DNA of 64,000 nt from Longimicrobiales bacterium. Lineage in GTDB: Bacteria > Gemmatimonadota > Gemmatimonadetes > Longimicrobiales > Gaopeijiaceae. The stretch lies in assembly GCA_958296005.1 (NCBI GenBank), contig CATQHQ010000001.1, forward strand, positions 636,134 through 700,133. The letters are read 5' to 3'. Of this stretch, positions 24,486 through 33,313 are shown in pieces. The position numbers were made by a program, and so were the translations under genes. The notes beneath the pieces were generated by a model, which saw only the letters and a program-made list of their open reading frames with translations, did not search any database and was not told the DNA's origin. The stretch's first letter is position 1, and each line of letters begins with the position of its first letter.

Positions 24486-26222
24486 GTGGCGGCGTCGCGT
24501 TTGCGGGCTTGGGCGCGTCGCCTGCGTCGGACGCTCTTGGACCCGGATCTTCGCCGAGGGCTGGCCTATATCGTTCCCTACCGGGGTCGGCTGGCGGTCG
24601 TTCTCGCGCTCAATCTGGTGGGAACCGGCTTGGCGCTCTGCGTTCCCTACCTTTCCAAGACGCTGGTGGACGACGCCCTCCTCGGGGGCGACCTCTCGGC
24701 CCTCGCCCGAGTGGTGGGACTGTTCGCGCTGGTGACGGGCGCAAGCTTCGCGCTGAACGTGGCCAGCGGGCTGCGGTATACGAAGGTGTCGGCGGAGATA
24801 CTCTTCGACATGCGACTGGACGTGTACCGGCACCTTCAGCGGCTGTCGCCCCGGTTCTTTGCAAAGACGCCGCTGGGCGACATCATGTCGCGCCTCAACA
24901 ACGACGTGGGGGAGATCCAGCGGGTCCTCTCCGATACGGCGTTGTCGTGGGTGGGCAACGTGGCGTTTCTGGCCGGGACGGTCGGAATGCTGCTGTGGCT
25001 GGACTGGCGGCTGTTCCTTGCGGCAGCGGCGCTGTTGCCTCCGGCCGCTCTGGCGATGGTGCGCTACCGGCGAAGACTGGAGGAACGCGTTCGGGCGATG
25101 CGGGAACGGAGTGCCGAGATCGGCGCGTTCCTGATCGAGACGTTGCGGGGGACGAAGCTCGTGGTTGCGTCCAACGCCCAGGCGCGGGAGTCCGCACGGT
25201 TCCGCCGCCGCAACGACGCCTTCGTGGGGGCGCTCCTCAAGATGCAGCGGCTGCGCTACCTGGCCGGGGGGCTTCCGGGGCTGCTGCTGTCGGCCAGCAC
25301 GGCCGTCGTGTTCCTCTATGGCGGCGCCCGGGTCGTCGCGGGAGACGTGACGCTGGGAACGTTCACGGCCTTCATGGCCTACCAAATGCGGCTGATCGGG
25401 CCTGTCCAGGGCTTGATGGGACTATACGCGGGGTTGGCCACGGCTCGCGTCTCGCTGCGACGAGTCCACCAGCTGCTGGACGAGCCGGTCGAGGTGGCGG
25501 AGGCGAAGCAGCCCGTTCGGCTGGATCGCGCGCGGGGGGATGTCGTCTTCGAGGACGTGTCGTTCGGTCACGGGCGTGGCGGTCCGGTGCTGGAGAGGTT
25601 CCGGCTGGAGGTTGCTCCCGGCGAAGTCGTGGCACTGGCGGGGCCGTCGGGGAGCGGCAAGTCCACCGTGGCGGGGCTGCTCGTCCGCCACATCGACCCG
25701 GACGGGGGACGAGTCCTGCTGGACGGCGTGGACATCCGACGGGTGCGTTTGGCGGATCTGCGAACCCAAGTGGCTGTGGTGGACCAAGACCCGTTTCTCT
25801 TCAACGCCACGATTATGGAGAACGTGCGCTACGCCAAGCCGGGCGCAGAAGAAGCCGCGGTTGAGGAGGCTCTGGAGCGCGCTCGGCTGTCCGACTTCGT
25901 GGCTTCCCTGCCCGACGGCCTCGACACCGAGGTGGGGGAGCACGGCCAAGCCCTGTCCGCCGGCGAGCGCCAGAGGATCGCCATAGCCCGGGCGTTGGTC
26001 GCGGACCCGGCGGTGCTGGTGCTCGACGAGGCCACTGGCCACCTGGACCCGGAGGCGGAAGCTCACGTGATCCGGGCCTACGCAGAAGCCATGCGGGGAC
26101 GCACGACGATCCTCGTGTCTCATCGCTCCGCTCCGCTGCGGGCGGCGAGCCGAGTGGTGGTGTTGCGCAACGGGCGCATCCGCGAGGAGGGCCCGGCGGA
26201 GCAGGACGACCGCAAGTGGTAA
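24486..26222 (+). CDS. qhpF: ABC exporter, transmembrane plus ATPase, probable QhpF
   Basis: Half-transporter of the type I exporter class, 578 residues. An N-terminal six-helix domain contains PYLSKTLVDDALL and DIMSRLNNDVGEIQ. It is followed by an ATPase with GPSGSGKST, Q-loop VDQDPFLFNATIMENVRYA, signature LSAGERQRIAIARAL and VLDEATGHLDPEAE. In amine dehydrogenase operons the ABC protein QhpF is proposed to move modified QhpC to the periplasm, and the gene is in the right place 45 bases after qhpB. GTG start at 24486. Its last 7 bases overlap the first sulfotransferase gene, and a shrunken copy of its 3' end reappears at about 29387-29432. Confidence 0.82.
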   Translation: MAASRLRAWARRLRRTLLDPDLRRGLAYIVPYRGRLAVVLALNLVGTGLALCVPYLSKTLVDDALLGGDLSALARVVGLFALVTGASFALNVASGLRYTKVSAEILFDMRLDVYRHLQRLSPRFFAKTPLGDIMSRLNNDVGEIQRVLSDTALSWVGNVAFLAGTVGMLLWLDWRLFLAAAALLPPAALAMVRYRRRLEERVRAMRERSAEIGAFLIETLRGTKLVVASNAQARESARFRRRNDAFVGALLKMQRLRYLAGGLPGLLLSASTAVVFLYGGARVVAGDVTLGTFTAFMAYQMRLIGPVQGLMGLYAGLATARVSLRRVHQLLDEPVEVAEAKQPVRLDRARGDVVFEDVSFGHGRGGPVLERFRLEVAPGEVVALAGPSGSGKSTVAGLLVRHIDPDGGRVLLDGVDIRRVRLADLRTQVAVVDQDPFLFNATIMENVRYAKPGAEEAAVEEALERARLSDFVASLPDGLDTEVGEHGQALSAGERQRIAIARALVADPAVLVLDEATGHLDPEAEAHVIRAYAEAMRGRTTILVSHRSAPLRAASRVVVLRNGRIREEGPAEQDDRKW

Positions 26223-27040
26223 ACCGGCGGGGCAGGCAGTTGCTGGCGCTTGCGTCGACGCCGGGCGTCGTCCAAGATGTGGCGGGTGCGCTGGTCCGCG
26301 GAAGGCTTGCCCCGGCCCTCCGCATGGCGCGCACGGTTGCTCGACGCGCTGACCTGGGTGCCGAGAAGATTGTTTCTCGACGGTACCGCTATGTCTGGTT
26401 GTGCAACCCGAAGGTCGCTTCGCGCAGCATCAAGTCCGCGCTGTGCAGCGTCACACCGGACGCTGAGGAGTTCAGCGGCATGAGCATCGGCGAAGTCTTC
26501 GCGGTCCGGCCGGACGCTCGTCGCTACCACAGCTTCGCCTTTGTCAGACACCCGTACACCAGGGCGCTGTCGTTCTACGCCGAACTGCATTTCGCGCACA
26601 AAACGTACGCGGAAGCATCTCAGGTGCGGCACAAGAAACAGAAGAGCAACCGGTTCTTCACGGACTATCATGGGTTGTCGGAGACCACCACTGGCTTCGA
26701 CGCGTACTGTGGATGGCTGGCGACGCCCTACGGTTCGGATGCCTTCGCCGACCGCCATTACCTGTCGCAGCACCTGCAAGTGCGGCTGGAGGACGGGCGC
26801 TTGCCCACGTTCGTGGGCCGCTTCGAGACCCTGGACCAGGACTTTGAGCGCGTCGTCCGCGACTTGGGGTTGCCGAAGCCGAAGTTGCCGGTGCTCAATA
26901 CAATGGCGGGTTGGCAGGCGGGGCCGGTCGCGTTGCGAACTGCCCGAGCTGCCATGAGCGAGCGCCTTACGGAGGACAACAAGACGCTGTTGCGCAAGCG
27001 GTATGCGGAGGACTTTGAAGTGGGCGGCTATACCCCATGA
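26216..27040 (+). CDS. Sulfotransferase family protein, array copy 1
   Basis: First of six tandem paralogues. Carbohydrate sulfotransferase-like proteins (sulfotransferase family 2 fold) transfer sulfate from PAPS to sugar hydroxyls. The 274-residue protein has the 5'-phosphosulfate loop CNPKVASRSIKSAL, the 3'-phosphate motif FAFVRHPYTRALSFY and, further on, RHYLSQHLQVR, which fits the family's HW-PQ region. No signal peptide is evident. The GTG start overlaps the qhpF stop by 7 bases, so it may be translated with the qhp operon. The stretch from about 113 to 150 (ELHFAHKTYAEASQVRHKKQ onward) differs strongly from the other copies whereas flanks are nearly the same. GC is visibly lower than in qhpF. 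Confidence 0.82.
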   Translation: MVNRRGRQLLALASTPGVVQDVAGALVRGRLAPALRMARTVARRADLGAEKIVSRRYRYVWLCNPKVASRSIKSALCSVTPDAEEFSGMSIGEVFAVRPDARRYHSFAFVRHPYTRALSFYAELHFAHKTYAEASQVRHKKQKSNRFFTDYHGLSETTTGFDAYCGWLATPYGSDAFADRHYLSQHLQVRLEDGRLPTFVGRFETLDQDFERVVRDLGLPKPKLPVLNTMAGWQAGPVALRTARAAMSERLTEDNKTLLRKRYAEDFEVGGYTP

Positions 27041-27197: not shown

Positions 27198-28100
27198 ATG
27201 AAAGCGAAAGCCCTGCAAAGGGTAAGCCGCTTAGATAGGCCGTTCCGGGTGCTTGCGACGATAGCGTCAGCCCGACTGCAAAAGGTAAGCCGCTTGGATA
27301 GGCCGTTCCGGGTGCTTGCGACGATGCCAGGCGTCCGCCAAGACTTCGCGGGTGCGTTGGTCCGCGGAAAGTTGCCCCGGGCCTTCCGCATGGTGTGCAC
27401 GGTTGCTCGACACGCCGACGTGCGTGCCCTGAAGATCGTCTCTCGAAGGTACCGCTATGTCTGGCTGAGCAACCCGAAGGTTGCTACGCAAAGCATCAAG
27501 TCCGCGCTGTGCAGCGTTACACCGGACGCTGAGGTGTTCAGGGGCATGAGCATCGGCGAAGTCTTCGCGGTCCGGCCGGACGCCCGTCGCTACTACAGCT
27601 TCGCCTTTGTCAGGCACCCGTACACCAGAGCGCTGTCGTCCTATGTATACTGGAACGAAAGGCTGGTGGATCGGAAATCTCAGGTGCGCAAGAAACAGAA
27701 GAGATATTTGTTCAAGGAAAGATACGGGTGGTCCGAGATAACTAGCTTTGACGAGTACTGTGGATGGCTGGCGACGCCCTACGGTTCGGATGCCTTCGCC
27801 GAGGGCCATTACCTGTCGCAGCACCTGCAAGTGCGGCTGGAGGACGGGCGCTTGCCCACGTTCGTGGGCCGCTTCGAGAACCTGGACCAGGACTTTGAGC
27901 GCGTCGTCCGCTACTTGGGGTTGCCACAGCCGAAGTTGCCGATGCTCAATACGATGGTGGGTTGGCGGCCTAGGCCGGTCGCGCTGCCAGCTCTGCAAGC
28001 TGCCCATGCGGCCATGAACGAACACCTTACGGAGGACAACAAGGCACTGCTGCGCGTGCGGTATGCAAAGGACTTCCAAGTGGGCGGCTATACCCCATGA
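27198..28100 (+). CDS. Sulfotransferase family protein, array copy 2
   Basis: Paralogue of copy 1, with SNPKVATQSIKSAL, FAFVRHPYTRALSSY and GHYLSQHLQVR. The track starts at 27003 inside the repeat; ATG 27198 (MKAKALQRVSRLDRP) is the more likely start and gives 300 residues. The N-terminus holds a 21-residue in-frame tandem duplication: VSRLDRPFRVLAT occurs twice, from a 63-bp direct repeat at DNA level. A later start at the second unit would give a product of the usual size, so the first unit may be untranslated. The variable stretch reads VYWNERLVDRKSQVRKKQ, unlike copies 1 and 4-6 but related to copy 3. PAPS-site motifs intact, so probably functional. Confidence 0.78.
   Translation: MKAKALQRVSRLDRPFRVLATIASARLQKVSRLDRPFRVLATMPGVRQDFAGALVRGKLPRAFRMVCTVARHADVRALKIVSRRYRYVWLSNPKVATQSIKSALCSVTPDAEVFRGMSIGEVFAVRPDARRYYSFAFVRHPYTRALSSYVYWNERLVDRKSQVRKKQKRYLFKERYGWSEITSFDEYCGWLATPYGSDAFAEGHYLSQHLQVRLEDGRLPTFVGRFENLDQDFERVVRYLGLPQPKLPMLNTMVGWRPRPVALPALQAAHAAMNEHLTEDNKALLRVRYAKDFQVGGYTP
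27213..27338 (+). repeat. 63-bp tandem direct duplication at the 5' end of sulfotransferase 2
   Basis: Units begin at CTGCAAAGGGTAAGCCGC (27213) and CTGCAAAAGGTAAGCCGC (27276). They share AGCCGCTT, GATAGGCCGTTCCGGGTG and CTTGCGACGAT with only a few differences. The period is exactly 63 bases and keeps frame (21 codons). Confidence 0.85.
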
Positions 28101-28277: not shown

Positions 28278-29093
28278 TTGCAAATGGTAAGCCGCTTGGA
28301 TAGGCTGTTCCGGGTGCTTGCGTCGATGCCAGGCGTCCGCCAAGACCTGGCGAGTGCGCTGATCCGCGGAAGGCTTGCCCCGGCCCTCCGCATGGCGCGC
28401 ACGGTTGCTCGACGCGCCGACTCGCGTGCCGAGAAGATCGTCTCTCGACGGTACCGCTATGTCTGGATATGCAACCCGAAGGTTGCTTCGCGTAGCATCA
28501 AGTCCGCGCTGCGCAGCGTTACACCGGACGCTGAGGTGTTCGAGGGCATGAGCATCGGCGAAGTCTTCGCGGTCCGGCCGGACGCCCGTCGCTACTACAG
28601 CTTCGCCTTTGTCAGACACCCGTACACCAGAGCGCTGTCGTCTTACGCATTCTCGCACGAACGGGCGGAAGAGGCATCTCAGATGCGACGCAAGAAACAG
28701 AATGGATACTTGTTCAAGGACAGATACGGATGGTCCGAGATAGCTGGCTTTGAGGAATACTGTGGATGGCTGGCGACGCGCTACGGCTCGGATGCCTTCG
28801 CCGACCGCCATTACCTGTCGCAGCATCTGCATATACGGCTGGAGGACGGGCGCTTGCCAACGTTCGTGGGCCGCTTCGAGAACCTGGACCAGGACTTTGA
28901 GCGCGTCGTTCGCGACTTGGGGTTACCGAAGCTGAAGTTGCCGGTGCTCCATACGATGGCGGGTTGGCGGCCCGGGCCGGCCGAGCTGCAAGCCGCCCGA
29001 GCGGCCATGAGCGAACGCCTCACGGAAGACAACAAGGCACTGCTGCGTGCGCGGTACGCAGAGGACTTCGAAGTGGGCGGCTATACCCCATGA
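28278..29093 (+). CDS. Sulfotransferase family protein, array copy 3
   Basis: Paralogue of 271 residues from TTG 28278 (or 269 from ATG 28284). It contains CNPKVASRSIKSAL, FAFVRHPYTRALSSY and RHYLSQHLHIRLEDG. The variable stretch is AFSHERAEEASQMRRKKQNG, closest to copy 2. The N-terminal block (VSRLDRLFRVLASMPGVRQDLASALIRG) matches a single unit of the duplication seen in copy 2. The gene ends GGYTP like copies 1, 2 and 6. The intergenic repeat and a broken aminotransferase 5' end follow it. Confidence 0.78.
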   Translation: MQMVSRLDRLFRVLASMPGVRQDLASALIRGRLAPALRMARTVARRADSRAEKIVSRRYRYVWICNPKVASRSIKSALRSVTPDAEVFEGMSIGEVFAVRPDARRYYSFAFVRHPYTRALSSYAFSHERAEEASQMRRKKQNGYLFKDRYGWSEIAGFEEYCGWLATRYGSDAFADRHYLSQHLHIRLEDGRLPTFVGRFENLDQDFERVVRDLGLPKLKLPVLHTMAGWRPGPAELQAARAAMSERLTEDNKALLRARYAEDFEVGGYTP

Positions 29094-29205
29094 TCGATGA
29101 TCCTCGGGCTTGCGGGCCGTGCGGAGCCGACTTGCCTCCACACGGCGGTGGGACGGCCGACTGGAGCGACGCGCCACCTTGCCCTACATTGACGATGCAC
29201 CACGC
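29094..29205 (+). repeat. Array intergenic repeat, copy after sulfotransferase 3
   Basis: Same element as at 27041 and 28101 (GGGCTTGCGGGCCGTGCGG, then CCTCCACACGGCGGTGGG). Here it runs straight into a degraded copy of the leader and 5' end of the aminotransferase gene that lies intact at 32171. Confidence 0.75.
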
Positions 29206-29390
29206 GAGCGTCCAGCAGGTGGCGCGTCACACCATGGGAACGGAGGCAGTACGATCTTGTCGGCAGTCATTCATCAGGGCAGGAACCCTCTCGAGCCTCG
29301 CGGCGGGGACGGACATGGCCAGCGCCTTGGGCACCAAGCTCCCCCCCCCCCCCCCCCTTTGCGACCAGGCCGGGGGCGCAGGACGACCAA
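29206..29390 (+). pseudogene. Truncated 5' copy of the Tat-aminotransferase gene
   Basis: From GCGAGCGTCCAGCAGGTGGC to GGGCGCAGGACG this stretch parallels 32119-32294 base for base with scattered changes. It includes CACACCATGGGAACGGAGGC and TCATTCAT-AG-GCAGGAACC. The initiating ATGCG of the intact gene is replaced (ACGATCTTGTCGG), a run of 17 C has appeared, and the copy ends where qhpF-like sequence starts. It is a remnant without coding capacity, left by a duplication that reached into the aminotransferase gene. Confidence 0.82.
29341..29357 (+). repeat. Homopolymer tract of 17 cytosines
   Basis: Uninterrupted C17 inside the aminotransferase remnant. The intact gene has AAGCCCCTCGCGGCCCTGG at the matching place, so the tract arose after duplication or is an assembly/base-calling artefact. 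Confidence 0.85.
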
Positions 29391-29434
29391 GCCCTGTCCG
29401 CCGGCGAGCGCATCCGCGAGGAGGACCCGGCTGG
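29387..29434 (+). pseudogene. Collapsed fragment of the qhpF 3' end
   Basis: CCAAGCCCTGTCCGCCGGCG, continuing AGCG (29387-29410), equals qhpF 25946-25969, the codons for the ABC signature. It is followed at once by GCGCATCCGCGAGGAGGACC, matching qhpF 26174 onward with one change. About 200 bases between the two qhpF parts are gone. The fragment sits directly before sulfotransferase 4, exactly where full qhpF sits before sulfotransferase 1. Confidence 0.82.
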
Positions 29435-29456
29435 CCCAGCATTCGGTGGACTGCCG

Positions 29457-30248
29457 TTGAAGCGAATCAAGACAAGCCATAACGAACGGACCCGATTGCA
29501 AGTGATAAACCGCTGGAATTGGCTATCCCGGATGCGCACGGTTTCTCGACGCGCCGACGCCGCCGTGCGTGGCGAGCGTATCGTCTCTCGACGGTACCGC
29601 TATGTCTGGCTGTGCAACCCGAAGGTTGCTTCGCGCAGCATCAACTCCGCGTTGCTCAGCGTCACACCGGACGCCGAGGTGTTCAACAACATGAGCATCG
29701 GCGAAATCTTAACGGTCCGGCCAGACGCCCGTCGCTACTACAGCTTCGCCTTTGTCAGGCACCCGTACACCAGAGCGCTGTCGTTCTACGCCCAACTGCA
29801 TTTCTCGCACGAAACGTACGTGGCTAGATCCAAGTCGCAGTGGAGGAGAAGGCATAGAAGAGCGTTGTTCAATAACCGTCCCGGGTTGTCGGGGACTGCT
29901 AGCTTCGACGAGTACTGTCGATGGTTGGCGACGCCCTACGGCTCGGATACCTTCGCCGATAACCATTATCTGTCGCAGCATCTGCATATACGGCTGGAGG
30001 ACGGGCGCTTGCCAACGTTCGTGGGCCGCTTCGAGAACCTGGATCAGGACTTTGAGCGGGTCCTTCGCGACTTGGGGTTGCCGAAGCCGAAGTTGCCGGT
30101 GCTCCATACGATGGCGGGTTGGCGGCCCGCGCCGGCCGAGCTGCAAGCCGCACGAGCGGCCATGAGCGAACGCCTCACGGAGGACAGCAAGGCACTGTTG
30201 CGCGTGCGGTATGCAAAGGACTTCGAAGTGGGCGGCTATACCGGATGA
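29457..30248 (+). CDS. Sulfotransferase family protein, array copy 4
   Basis: Paralogue of 263 residues from a TTG at 29457; the start is uncertain. The N-terminal block is shortened compared with copies 1-3 and goes from a basic start (MKRIKTSHNERTRLQ) straight to SRRADAAVRGERIVSRRYRYVW. It retains CNPKVASRSINSAL, FAFVRHPYTRALSFY and NHYLSQHLHIR. The variable stretch is AQLHFSHETYVARSKSQWRR, which begins like copy 1 and ends like copies 5-6, as expected from recombination between copies. It ends GGYTG rather than GGYTP because its stop lies in a different junction sequence, overlapping copy 5 as ATGA. Confidence 0.76.
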   Translation: MKRIKTSHNERTRLQVINRWNWLSRMRTVSRRADAAVRGERIVSRRYRYVWLCNPKVASRSINSALLSVTPDAEVFNNMSIGEILTVRPDARRYYSFAFVRHPYTRALSFYAQLHFSHETYVARSKSQWRRRHRRALFNNRPGLSGTASFDEYCRWLATPYGSDTFADNHYLSQHLHIRLEDGRLPTFVGRFENLDQDFERVLRDLGLPKPKLPVLHTMAGWRPAPAELQAARAAMSERLTEDSKALLRVRYAKDFEVGGYTG

Positions 30249-31129
30249 TCGGCCCGAGATTACCAGCTTCGACGAGTACTGTCGATGGTTGGCGACGCCG
30301 ACCTGATAGCAAGGTGCACCGCTTGTATAAGCTGTTCCAGATGTGCGCGTTGGAACCGAAGATCCGCCAAGACTTGGCGGATGCGCTGGTCCGAGGAAAG
30401 CTTGTCCAGGCCTTCCGCACGGCGCGCCTGGTCTCTCAACCTCGACGCACCGACGTGCGTAGCGAGCGTATCGTCTCTCGACGGTACCGCTATGTCTGGC
30501 TGTGCAACCCGAAGGTTGCTTCGAACAGCATCAAGTCCGCGTTGCTCAGCGTCACACCGGACGCCGAGGTGTTCACCAGCATGAGCATCGGCGAATTTTG
30601 CGAGATCCGGCCGGACGTCCGTCGCTACCACAGCTTCAGCTTTGTCAGGCACCCGTACACCAGAGCGCTGTCGTTCTACGCCCAGCTGTTTTTCTCGCAC
30701 GAAACGTACCCTGGGTCGCAGTGGAGGAGAAAGCATAGAAACTCGTTGTTCAATAGCCACCCCGGGTTGTCGGAGATTACTAGCTTCGACGAGTACTGTC
30801 GATGGTTGGCGACGCCCTACGGCTCGGATGCCTTCGCCGACAACCATTACCTGTCGCAGCATCTGTACATACGGCTGGAGGACGGGCGCTTGCCCACGTT
30901 CGTGGGCCGCCTCGAGAACCTGGACCAGGACCTTGAGCGCGTCCTTCGCGACTTGGGGTTGCCGAAGCCGAAGTTGCCGGTGCTCCATACGATGGCGGGC
31001 TGGCGGCCCGCGCCGGCCGAGCTGCAAGCCGCACGAGCGGCCATGAGCGAACTCCTCACGGAGGACAGCAAGGCACTGTTGCGCATGCGGTATGCAAAGG
31101 ACTTCGAAGTGGGCGGCTATACCGGATGA
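30245..31129 (+). CDS. Sulfotransferase family protein, array copy 5
   Basis: 294 residues from ATG 30245, which overlaps the copy 4 stop as ATGA. The first 18 or so codons (IGPRLPASTSTVDGW) are not homologous to other N-termini. Their DNA, 30256-30299, is a 44-base copy of the internal segment that encodes EITSFDEYCRWLAT, read in another frame. GTG 30314 would skip this and give 271 residues, the same size as copy 3, so it may be the true start. Motifs CNPKVASNSIKSAL (an Asn replaces Arg), FSFVRHPYTRALSFY and NHYLSQHLYIR are kept. The variable stretch is AQLFFSHETYPGSQWRRKHR. Confidence 0.76.
   Translation: MIGPRLPASTSTVDGWRRRPDSKVHRLYKLFQMCALEPKIRQDLADALVRGKLVQAFRTARLVSQPRRTDVRSERIVSRRYRYVWLCNPKVASNSIKSALLSVTPDAEVFTSMSIGEFCEIRPDVRRYHSFSFVRHPYTRALSFYAQLFFSHETYPGSQWRRKHRNSLFNSHPGLSEITSFDEYCRWLATPYGSDAFADNHYLSQHLYIRLEDGRLPTFVGRLENLDQDLERVLRDLGLPKPKLPVLHTMAGWRPAPAELQAARAAMSELLTEDSKALLRMRYAKDFEVGGYTG
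30256..30299 (+). repeat. Out-of-frame copy of an internal sulfotransferase segment at the copy 4/5 junction
   Basis: GAGATTACCAGCTTCGACGA through GGCGACGCC (44 bases) matches 30773-30816 within copy 5 with a single mismatch. A slightly more diverged version lies at 31137-31180 at the copy 5/6 junction. Confidence 0.85.
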
Positions 31130-32010
31130 TCGGTCCGAGATTACCAGCTTCGACGAGTACTGTCGGTGGTTGGCAACGTCGACCTGATAGCAAGGTGCAC
31201 CGCTTGAATAGACTGTTCCAGATGTGCGCGTTGGAACCGAAGATCCGCCAAGACTTGGCGGATGCGCTGGTCCGCGGAAAGCTTGTCCAGGCCTTCCGCA
31301 CGGCGCGCCTGGTCTCTCAACCTCGACGCACCGACGTGCGTAGCGAGCGTATCGTCTCTCGACGGTACCGCTATGTCTGGCTGTGCAACCCGAAGGTTGC
31401 TTCGCGCAGCATCAAGTCCGCGTTGCTCAGCGTCACACCGGACGCCGAGGTGTTCCTCAGCATGAGCATCGGCGAACTTTGCGAGATCCGGCCGGATGTC
31501 CGTCGCTACCACAGCTTCAGCTTTGTCAGGCACCCGTACACCAGAGCGCCGTCGTTCTACGCCCAGCTGTTTTTCTCGCACGAAACGTACCCTGAGTCGC
31601 AGAGGAGGAGATGGCTTAGAAACTCGTTGTTCAATAGACTCCCCGGGTTGTCGGAGATTACTAGCTTCGACGAGTACTGTCGATGGTTGGCGACGCCCTA
31701 CGGCTCGGATGCCTTCGCCGACAACCATTACCTGTCGCAGCATCTGCATATACGGCTGGAGGACGGGCGCTTGCCCACGTTCGTGGGCCGCTTCGAGAAC
31801 CTGGACCAGGACCTTGAGCGCGTCCTTCGCGACTTGGGGTTGCCGAAGCCGAAGTTGCCGGTGCTCAATACGATGGCGGGTTGGCGGCCTGCGCCGGCCG
31901 AGCTGCAAGCCGCACGAGCGGCCATGAGCGAACTCCTCACGGAGGACAGCAAGGCACTGTTGCGCATGCGGTATGCAAAGGACTTCGAAGTGGGCGGCTA
32001 TACCCCATGA
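31126..32010 (+). CDS. Sulfotransferase family protein, array copy 6
   Basis: 294 residues from ATG 31126 (ATGA overlap with copy 5) or 271 from GTG 31195. Very close to copy 5, including the out-of-frame captured segment at its 5' end. It has CNPKVASRSIKSAL, FSFVRHPYTRAPSFY (Pro replaces Leu next to the 3'-phosphate motif) and NHYLSQHLHIR. The variable stretch is AQLFFSHETYPESQRRRWLR. It ends GGYTP and is followed by the intergenic repeat, then by the intact aminotransferase gene, so it keeps the original right-hand junction of the array. Confidence 0.78.
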   Translation: MIGPRLPASTSTVGGWQRRPDSKVHRLNRLFQMCALEPKIRQDLADALVRGKLVQAFRTARLVSQPRRTDVRSERIVSRRYRYVWLCNPKVASRSIKSALLSVTPDAEVFLSMSIGELCEIRPDVRRYHSFSFVRHPYTRAPSFYAQLFFSHETYPESQRRRWLRNSLFNRLPGLSEITSFDEYCRWLATPYGSDAFADNHYLSQHLHIRLEDGRLPTFVGRFENLDQDLERVLRDLGLPKPKLPVLNTMAGWRPAPAELQAARAAMSELLTEDSKALLRMRYAKDFEVGGYTP

Positions 32011-32120
32011 ACGACGATGCTTGGGCTTGCGGGCCGTGCGGTGCCGGCTTGCCTCCACACGGCGGTGGAGGGCTGATTGGCGCGACGCACCACTTTGCGC
32101 CTATATTGACGATGCGCCAC
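32011..32120 (+). repeat. Array intergenic repeat, copy after sulfotransferase 6
   Basis: Same element as at 27041, with the perfect CCTCCAC-ACGGCG-GTGGAGG stem restored. It forms the leader of the downstream aminotransferase gene and is therefore probably the original location of the element. Confidence 0.78.
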
Positions 32121-32170
32121 GCGAGCGTCCAGCAGGTGGCGCGCCACACCATGGGAACGGAGGCAGTACG

Positions 32171-33313
32171 ATGCGTCGGCGGTCATTCATAAGAGCAGGA
32201 ACCTTCTCGAGTCTCGCGGCGGGAACGGGCATGGCCAGCGCATTGGGCGCCAAGCCCCTCGCGGCCCTGGCGACCGGGCCGGGGCGCAGGACGGCCAGCG
32301 GGGACGTGCGCCTCAACTCCAACGAGAACCCCCTGGGAATCTCGCCCGCCGCGAAGGACGCGCTGGTGGAAGCGATCGTCCTCGCCAACCGCTACCCGTC
32401 GGACCAGAACGCGGCCCTCGTCTCCAAGCTGGCCACCGCCCACGACGTGGCCGACGGCCAGATCGTGCTCGGCACCGGCTCCGCCGAGGTCCTCCAGATG
32501 GCGGTACAAGCGTTTGCCGCACCGCGGGCCCGCTTGGTCATGGCCGACCCGACCTACGAGGCGATCATCGACTACCAGCGCACGGAGTCCTACGAGCTGG
32601 TGAAGGTGCCCCTCACCGCGACCCACGAGCACGATCTGGACCAGATGCGCGCCGCCGCGGAGAGCTCGGGCCGGCCCGCCCTCGTGTACCTCTGCAACCC
32701 CAACAACCCGACGGCGACGATCACCCCCAGCGCCGCGATCGACGCATGGATCGCCGACGCGCCGGAGCACGTCTTCTTCCTCTCCGACGAAGCGTACATC
32801 GAGTACGTGGAGGACGATCGGATGTGGAGCTCGCTTCCCTGGATCGAGAAGAAGCGCAACGTCCTCGTGGTCAAGACCTTCTCGAAGATATACGGGCTCG
32901 CGGGCCTCCGGCTGGGGTACGGAATCGCCCACCCCGACACCGCGGCGCGACTGTCGGATTTCGCCTCCCGGAACAACGCCAACCAGCTGGCCCTGGCCGC
33001 CGCCGCCGCGTCGTTCCAGGACGAGGCGCTCATGACCAAGAGTCGGATCGTCAACCAGGAGGCCAAGAAGATGGTCCAGGCCACCTTGGACGAACTGGGG
33101 CTGGAGCACATGCCCACCGAGACCAACTTCCTCATGCACCGGATCAGCGGCGACTTGGCCACGTACCGGGGCCGCATGGCGGAGGCTGGGTTCCTGGTGG
33201 GTCGCGACTTCCCGCCGATGCTCGACTGGAACCGACTCTCCTTCGGGCTGCCCGAGGACATGGGCCGCTTCTGCGACACGCTGCGACAGTTCCGGCAAAA
33301 GGGCTGGGTGTAG
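32171..33313 (+). CDS. Tat-exported PLP aminotransferase of the histidinol-phosphate aminotransferase family
   Basis: Fold-type I transaminase, 380 residues from ATG 32171 with GGAGG about 8 bases upstream. The N-terminus MRRRSFIRAGTFSSLAAG is a twin-arginine signal, so the folded PLP enzyme is predicted in the periplasm. The catalytic part has LNSNENPLGISP (about 47-58), GTGSAEVLQM, the aspartate/tyrosine region SDEAYIEYV and the PLP-lysine segment VVKTFSKIYGLAGLRLGYG. HisC-like sequence suggests an aromatic or imidazole amino-donor, but an exported enzyme is unlikely to serve histidine synthesis. It lies downstream of the sulfotransferase array, and a broken copy of its 5' end is found between copies 3 and 4. 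Confidence 0.88.
   Translation: MRRRSFIRAGTFSSLAAGTGMASALGAKPLAALATGPGRRTASGDVRLNSNENPLGISPAAKDALVEAIVLANRYPSDQNAALVSKLATAHDVADGQIVLGTGSAEVLQMAVQAFAAPRARLVMADPTYEAIIDYQRTESYELVKVPLTATHEHDLDQMRAAAESSGRPALVYLCNPNNPTATITPSAAIDAWIADAPEHVFFLSDEAYIEYVEDDRMWSSLPWIEKKRNVLVVKTFSKIYGLAGLRLGYGIAHPDTAARLSDFASRNNANQLALAAAAASFQDEALMTKSRIVNQEAKKMVQATLDELGLEHMPTETNFLMHRISGDLATYRGRMAEAGFLVGRDFPPMLDWNRLSFGLPEDMGRFCDTLRQFRQKGWV

Follow-up and report, generated by a model that had tools for sequence, protein, structure and literature searches.

A probable tandem duplication join within a sulfotransferase array adjoining a qhp operon in a Longimicrobiales bacterium

How a tract that resembles the beginning of one gene and the end of another came to lie between two members of a tandem gene array is the question raised by the locus described here. 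The window, by which is meant the whole stretch of 64,000 nucleotides that was analysed, contains a qhp operon with matches to QhpA, QhpD and QhpC and a weaker match to QhpB, followed by an ABC exporter that occupies the QhpF position. The genes of the quinohemoprotein amine dehydrogenase operon have been listed as qhpABCDEFGR (PMC7876137), and the operon in the window resembles this in having qhpA, D, C and B together with an ABC exporter. It lies directly upstream of six tandem sulfotransferase genes (ST1-ST6) and an aminotransferase (AT) gene, all of which are, in contrast, absent from the genes listed for that operon. The six sulfotransferase genes all score above the curated cut-off of 22 bits for PF03567 (39-59 bits), in keeping with membership of the Sulfotransfer_2 family, and are the only PF03567 genes of the genome. 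A literature search on sulfotransferase arrays adjoining qhp found nothing relevant. The features of the locus are as follows, T being a 110-nt tail module.

24486-26222, + strand: qhpF, the ABC exporter gene of the qhp operon (Pfam ABC_membrane/ABC_tran), placed after qhpA, qhpD, qhpC and qhpB; by its junction match the donor of the junction 3' half, breakpoint 25942-25948
26216-27040, + strand: ST1 (PF03567), GTG start overlapping the qhpF stop
27198-28100, + strand: ST2 (PF03567), likely start ATG 27198, with an in-frame 63-nt leader repeat
28284-29093, + strand: ST3 (PF03567)
29094-29204, + strand: T module trailing copy 3, its homologue being the downstream flank of ST6 ahead of AT (32011-32121), 14 differences in 110
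29205-29254, + strand: duplicated AT leader, 1 difference in 49 against 32122-32170
29255-29389, + strand: relic of the AT 5' end, matching 32171-32297, start codon lost and frame broken, polarised against 22 relatives
29341-29357, + strand: C17 homopolymer tract within the AT relic
29383-29389, + strand: join point, ACGACCA (ACGGCCA in both parents)
29390-29411, + strand: qhpF relic, piece 1, equivalent to qhpF 25949-25970, 22/22 identical
29412-29431, + strand: qhpF relic, piece 2, equivalent to qhpF 26178-26197, 19/20 identical, separated from piece 1 by a deletion of 207 bp that is bounded on each side by GCGC
29432-29501, + strand: copy 4 leader, homologous to the copy 2 and 3 leaders from about 29459
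29502-30248, + strand: ST4 (PF03567), with an in-frame N-terminal deletion of ~81 nt by alignment
30256-30299, + strand: 44-nt internal sulfotransferase fragment between ST4 and ST5, a second type of scar, found again at 31133-31178 between ST5 and ST6
30314-31129, + strand: ST5 (PF03567)
31195-32010, + strand: ST6 (PF03567)
32171-33313, + strand: intact PLP aminotransferase gene, AT (PF00155, HisC-like), with a Tat-like N-terminus; donor of the junction 5' half

When the window was compared with itself, 29095-29389 aligned with 32012-32297 (85.1%, E 3e-79), a span that includes the AT leader and start. The pieces that follow the ST3 tail are the AT leader and then the first ~125 nt of the AT gene. 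The same comparison matched 29372-29411 to qhpF 25931-25970 (87.5%, E 5e-7), with all 22 positions from the join onward (29390-29411) identical to qhpF, and 29405-29431 to qhpF 26171-26197 (25/27, E 5e-4). Scores for these three matches to qhpF are 55, 46 and 41, and the maxima reached in 500 dinucleotide shuffles are 35, 30 and 29. A reverse-strand match of 29409-29465 to qhpF 25452-25505 (E 0.004) was judged to be due to chance. A search of the whole 3.06-Mb genome found no other source for the AT and qhpF pieces of the junction. A preliminary description of the locus had placed the AT leader and start after ST3, followed by qhpF and then ST4, and this order is borne out by the self-comparison, in which the extended AT match and both qhpF matches are present. 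The AT match itself stands but its proposed beginning at 29206 does not, as the match begins earlier and already covers the 110-nt tail that follows ST3 (29094-29204, corresponding to 32011-32121).

The switch from AT to qhpF lies, exactly as had been described, at a 7-mer, ACGGCCA, that is shared by AT (32291-32297) and qhpF (25942-25948) and reads ACGACCA in the junction (29383-29389). Were the breakpoints in AT and qhpF placed at random, the probability of their falling in an identical run of at least 7 nt would be 0.001. The loss from the qhpF piece, previously put at about 200 bases, amounts to 207 bp (the alignment offset changes from 3441 to 3234), and the second piece of the relic, corresponding to qhpF 26174-26197, runs on into the copy 4 leader. 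The origin of the ~28 nt at 29432-29458, just ahead of the homology to the other leaders, is not certain.

Leading up to the join are ST3, the T tail, the AT leader and the AT start, in that order; beyond it come the 3' end of qhpF, a leader that copies 2 and 3 also have, and ST4. What the sequence itself shows is a passage from the beginning of AT into the 3' portion of qhpF through 7 nt that the two genes have in common, each flank retaining its native order. A single tandem duplication whose breakpoints fell in qhpF and AT predicts just such an order and a join at short homology, and it is highly probable that the tract marks where an old duplication of this kind was joined. The ancestral arrangement would have been qhpF, one or more sulfotransferases and AT. 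The event itself would have been strand exchange or a template switch at ACGGCCA between sister copies, probably with no need of long homology, and everything from one breakpoint to the other would have been duplicated. What remained between the two sulfotransferase sets would have been the beginning of an AT and the end of a qhpF, both truncated, with the outer qhpF and AT still whole. The relic would then have decayed by loss of the start codon, gain of C17 and deletion of 207 bp at a GCGC repeat, and both sulfotransferase sets would have grown by other kinds of local join and been partly mixed by gene conversion.

Bacterial amplification junctions with microhomology or with no homology have been reviewed (PMC11721125). 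The join described here is like the short-homology joins of that review in that the 5' part of a downstream gene meets the 3' part of an upstream gene at a short shared sequence, with the duplicated genes flanking. It differs from those joins, which come from recent amplifications in evolved populations, in being fixed and decayed and in having copies that have diverged. The duplication join point is real, well preserved and of an ordinary, known kind.

The leading alternative, which we regard as improbable, is a patchwork insertion in which template switching during break repair placed short copied segments of AT and qhpF in a gap already present between ST3 and ST4, the genes between them not having been duplicated. 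The division of the qhpF part into two short pieces could be accommodated by such an insertion, as could the lower divergence of the relic compared with the sulfotransferases beside it. Outside the start-codon and C-run regions, 12/192 positions of the AT and qhpF relics no longer agree with the source genes, and the tails of copies 3 and 6 differ from each other at 14/110. Third codon positions of ST3 and ST6 differ at 44/266 (Fisher p 0.0008 against the 12/192 of the relic), an excess that counts against the duplication reading, though constraint and gene conversion confound the comparison. Part of the gap is explained by selection on AT and qhpF, the living genes, which lowers the relic figure; the rest must be explained by older divergence among the copies or by faster change in the array, and divergence of the sulfotransferases may already have been under way when the block was copied. 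Separate patches would not, however, be expected to continue natively in both halves, from tail to leader to AT on one side and from qhpF end to leader to sulfotransferase on the other, and the sulfotransferase tree, too, splits at the same place. In that tree ST4-6 form a clade with support of 100/99 as against ST1-3, and the split {1,2,3}|{4,5,6} coincides with the join.

The state of the relic also bears on its age. In the AT relic the start codon is gone, the C17 run has arisen and the C-run region shifts the frame; the missing start and the frameshift rule the relic out as a living gene. At sites where the relic and the living AT differ, the base that is commoner among 22 relatives is kept by the relic at some and by the living AT at others. 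This indicates that both have changed since the copying and that the relic is of long standing, not a patch acquired recently. The piece order and the short homology, and as two independent facts the split in the sulfotransferase tree and the polarity of the AT relic, together support the earlier proposal of a tandem duplication by which the array grew at least once as a block.

This block duplication was only one of the events that built the array. At the joins between copies 1 and 2 and between copies 2 and 3, T is cut at about 32121 and fused to the leader, while the joins between copies 4 and 5 and between copies 5 and 6 carry the 44-nt internal sulfotransferase fragment. The presence of three junction types indicates that the array was made by at least three kinds of join, and most of the growth from two to six copies took place through the other, local joins, of two further junction types, on each side. 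The relations among copies 1-3 vary along the gene, and such conflict between gene parts points to gene conversion. A three-copy block without later mixing, which would pair copies 1-4, 2-5 and 3-6, was rejected (AU about 1e-86). When the tree was rooted with the distant sulfotransferase of the family genome G037, the best root separated ST1 from all other copies (AU 0.95), which likewise counts against the duplication reading, although a clean root between copies 1-3 and copies 4-6 was not rejected (AU 0.115). Among the T tails, that of copy 1 groups with that of copy 6 and that of copy 2 with that of copy 3 (7 sites against 0 and 1), which is compatible with expansion inside the left set. 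Copies 1-3 are mosaic, and the divergence between left and right sulfotransferases exceeds that of the relic, so the block may have carried one copy or more.

ST1 is without the leader kept by copies 2-4, and its GTG overlaps the end of qhpF (26197-26222); the simplest reading is that this leader was deleted later. ST2 carries an in-frame 63-nt duplication of the leader and start (27198-27325), and its start has moved to ATG 27198 or another candidate. Codons about 120-175 of the sulfotransferase alignment are far more variable between copies than the remaining protein, and it is possible that this segment is a substrate-specific loop. For copies 4-6 the NG86 ratios lie close to 1 (dN 0.10 and dS 0.10 for both 4-5 and 4-6), as could result from weak constraint or from a clustering of the divergence in the variable segment.

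The tract itself is best read as non-coding remains. A fusion protein of the qhpF relic with ST4 was considered and is not supported: an open frame does extend from 29193, yet no ATG, GTG or TTG start occurs in it before 29457. A second alternative to a decayed duplication join is that the junction is in use, slippage of C17 in the dead AT start, together with the kept AT leader, forming a switchable regulatory region that tunes expression of copies 4-6. Poly-C/G tracts of at least 14 nt are few in the 3.06-Mb genome, C17 being one of six and four of the others having restriction or candidate defence genes as their setting, and the AT leader is nearly unchanged (1/49), both of which would suit a switch. 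A sigma-70 scan of the junction, however, found no sigma-70-like promoter, and C17 lies in a broken gene and within no intact one, 144 nt before the ST4 start, where it affects no recognised frame; we consider such a role very unlikely.

The four tracts in or beside defence genes of this genome (G000) are at C1:30602-30623, C1:52474-52494, C2:45612-45637 and C2:1394275-1394298. Three of them are in frames matching type IIG-like restriction-methylase enzymes, and the fourth (G21) lies between two frames that both match PDC-M33A, a candidate defence protein, as if switched off by a frameshift. This suggests that poly-C/G tracts mark phase-variable defence genes elsewhere in the genome; to extend phase variation to C17 is speculation. 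Poly-G/C runs of at least 14 nt occur several times each in the relatives G037 and G034, with none in G033 and G043.

An assembly artefact joining repeats might be suspected in so repetitive a region, but the pieces at the join are distinct from all their other copies in the genome (the AT part at 85% and with mutations of its own), so they are not collapsed or misplaced copies and this explanation is exceedingly improbable.

The duplication has also been set against related genomes. In the genome set searched, the genus is represented by this genome alone. AT is common in 121 genomes of the family, the closest at 82-83%, while a clear relative of the sulfotransferases was found only in G037 (54%), where a single copy lies elsewhere in the genome, as opposed to six copies adjoining the qhp operon here; two other family genomes gave marginal hits. 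In 152 of 154 genomes of the order there was no sulfotransferase relative at E 1e-10, a search of viral contigs found none, and a scan of genome contigs gave only distant (25%) sulfotransferases. In the loci read in G033, G034 and G037, qhpF and AT are far apart, and neither a pre-duplication locus nor a relative with an unduplicated array was present among the 154 genomes of the order. The absence of the array from the sampled relatives indicates that the array and its scars are, as far as sampled, lineage-specific. The order of events in such an array can here be read from one genome: a block duplication at short homology, after which each side grew locally on its own and with different scars. 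As a process this is well known, and the locus provides a clean example of the mechanism and order by which an array grows.
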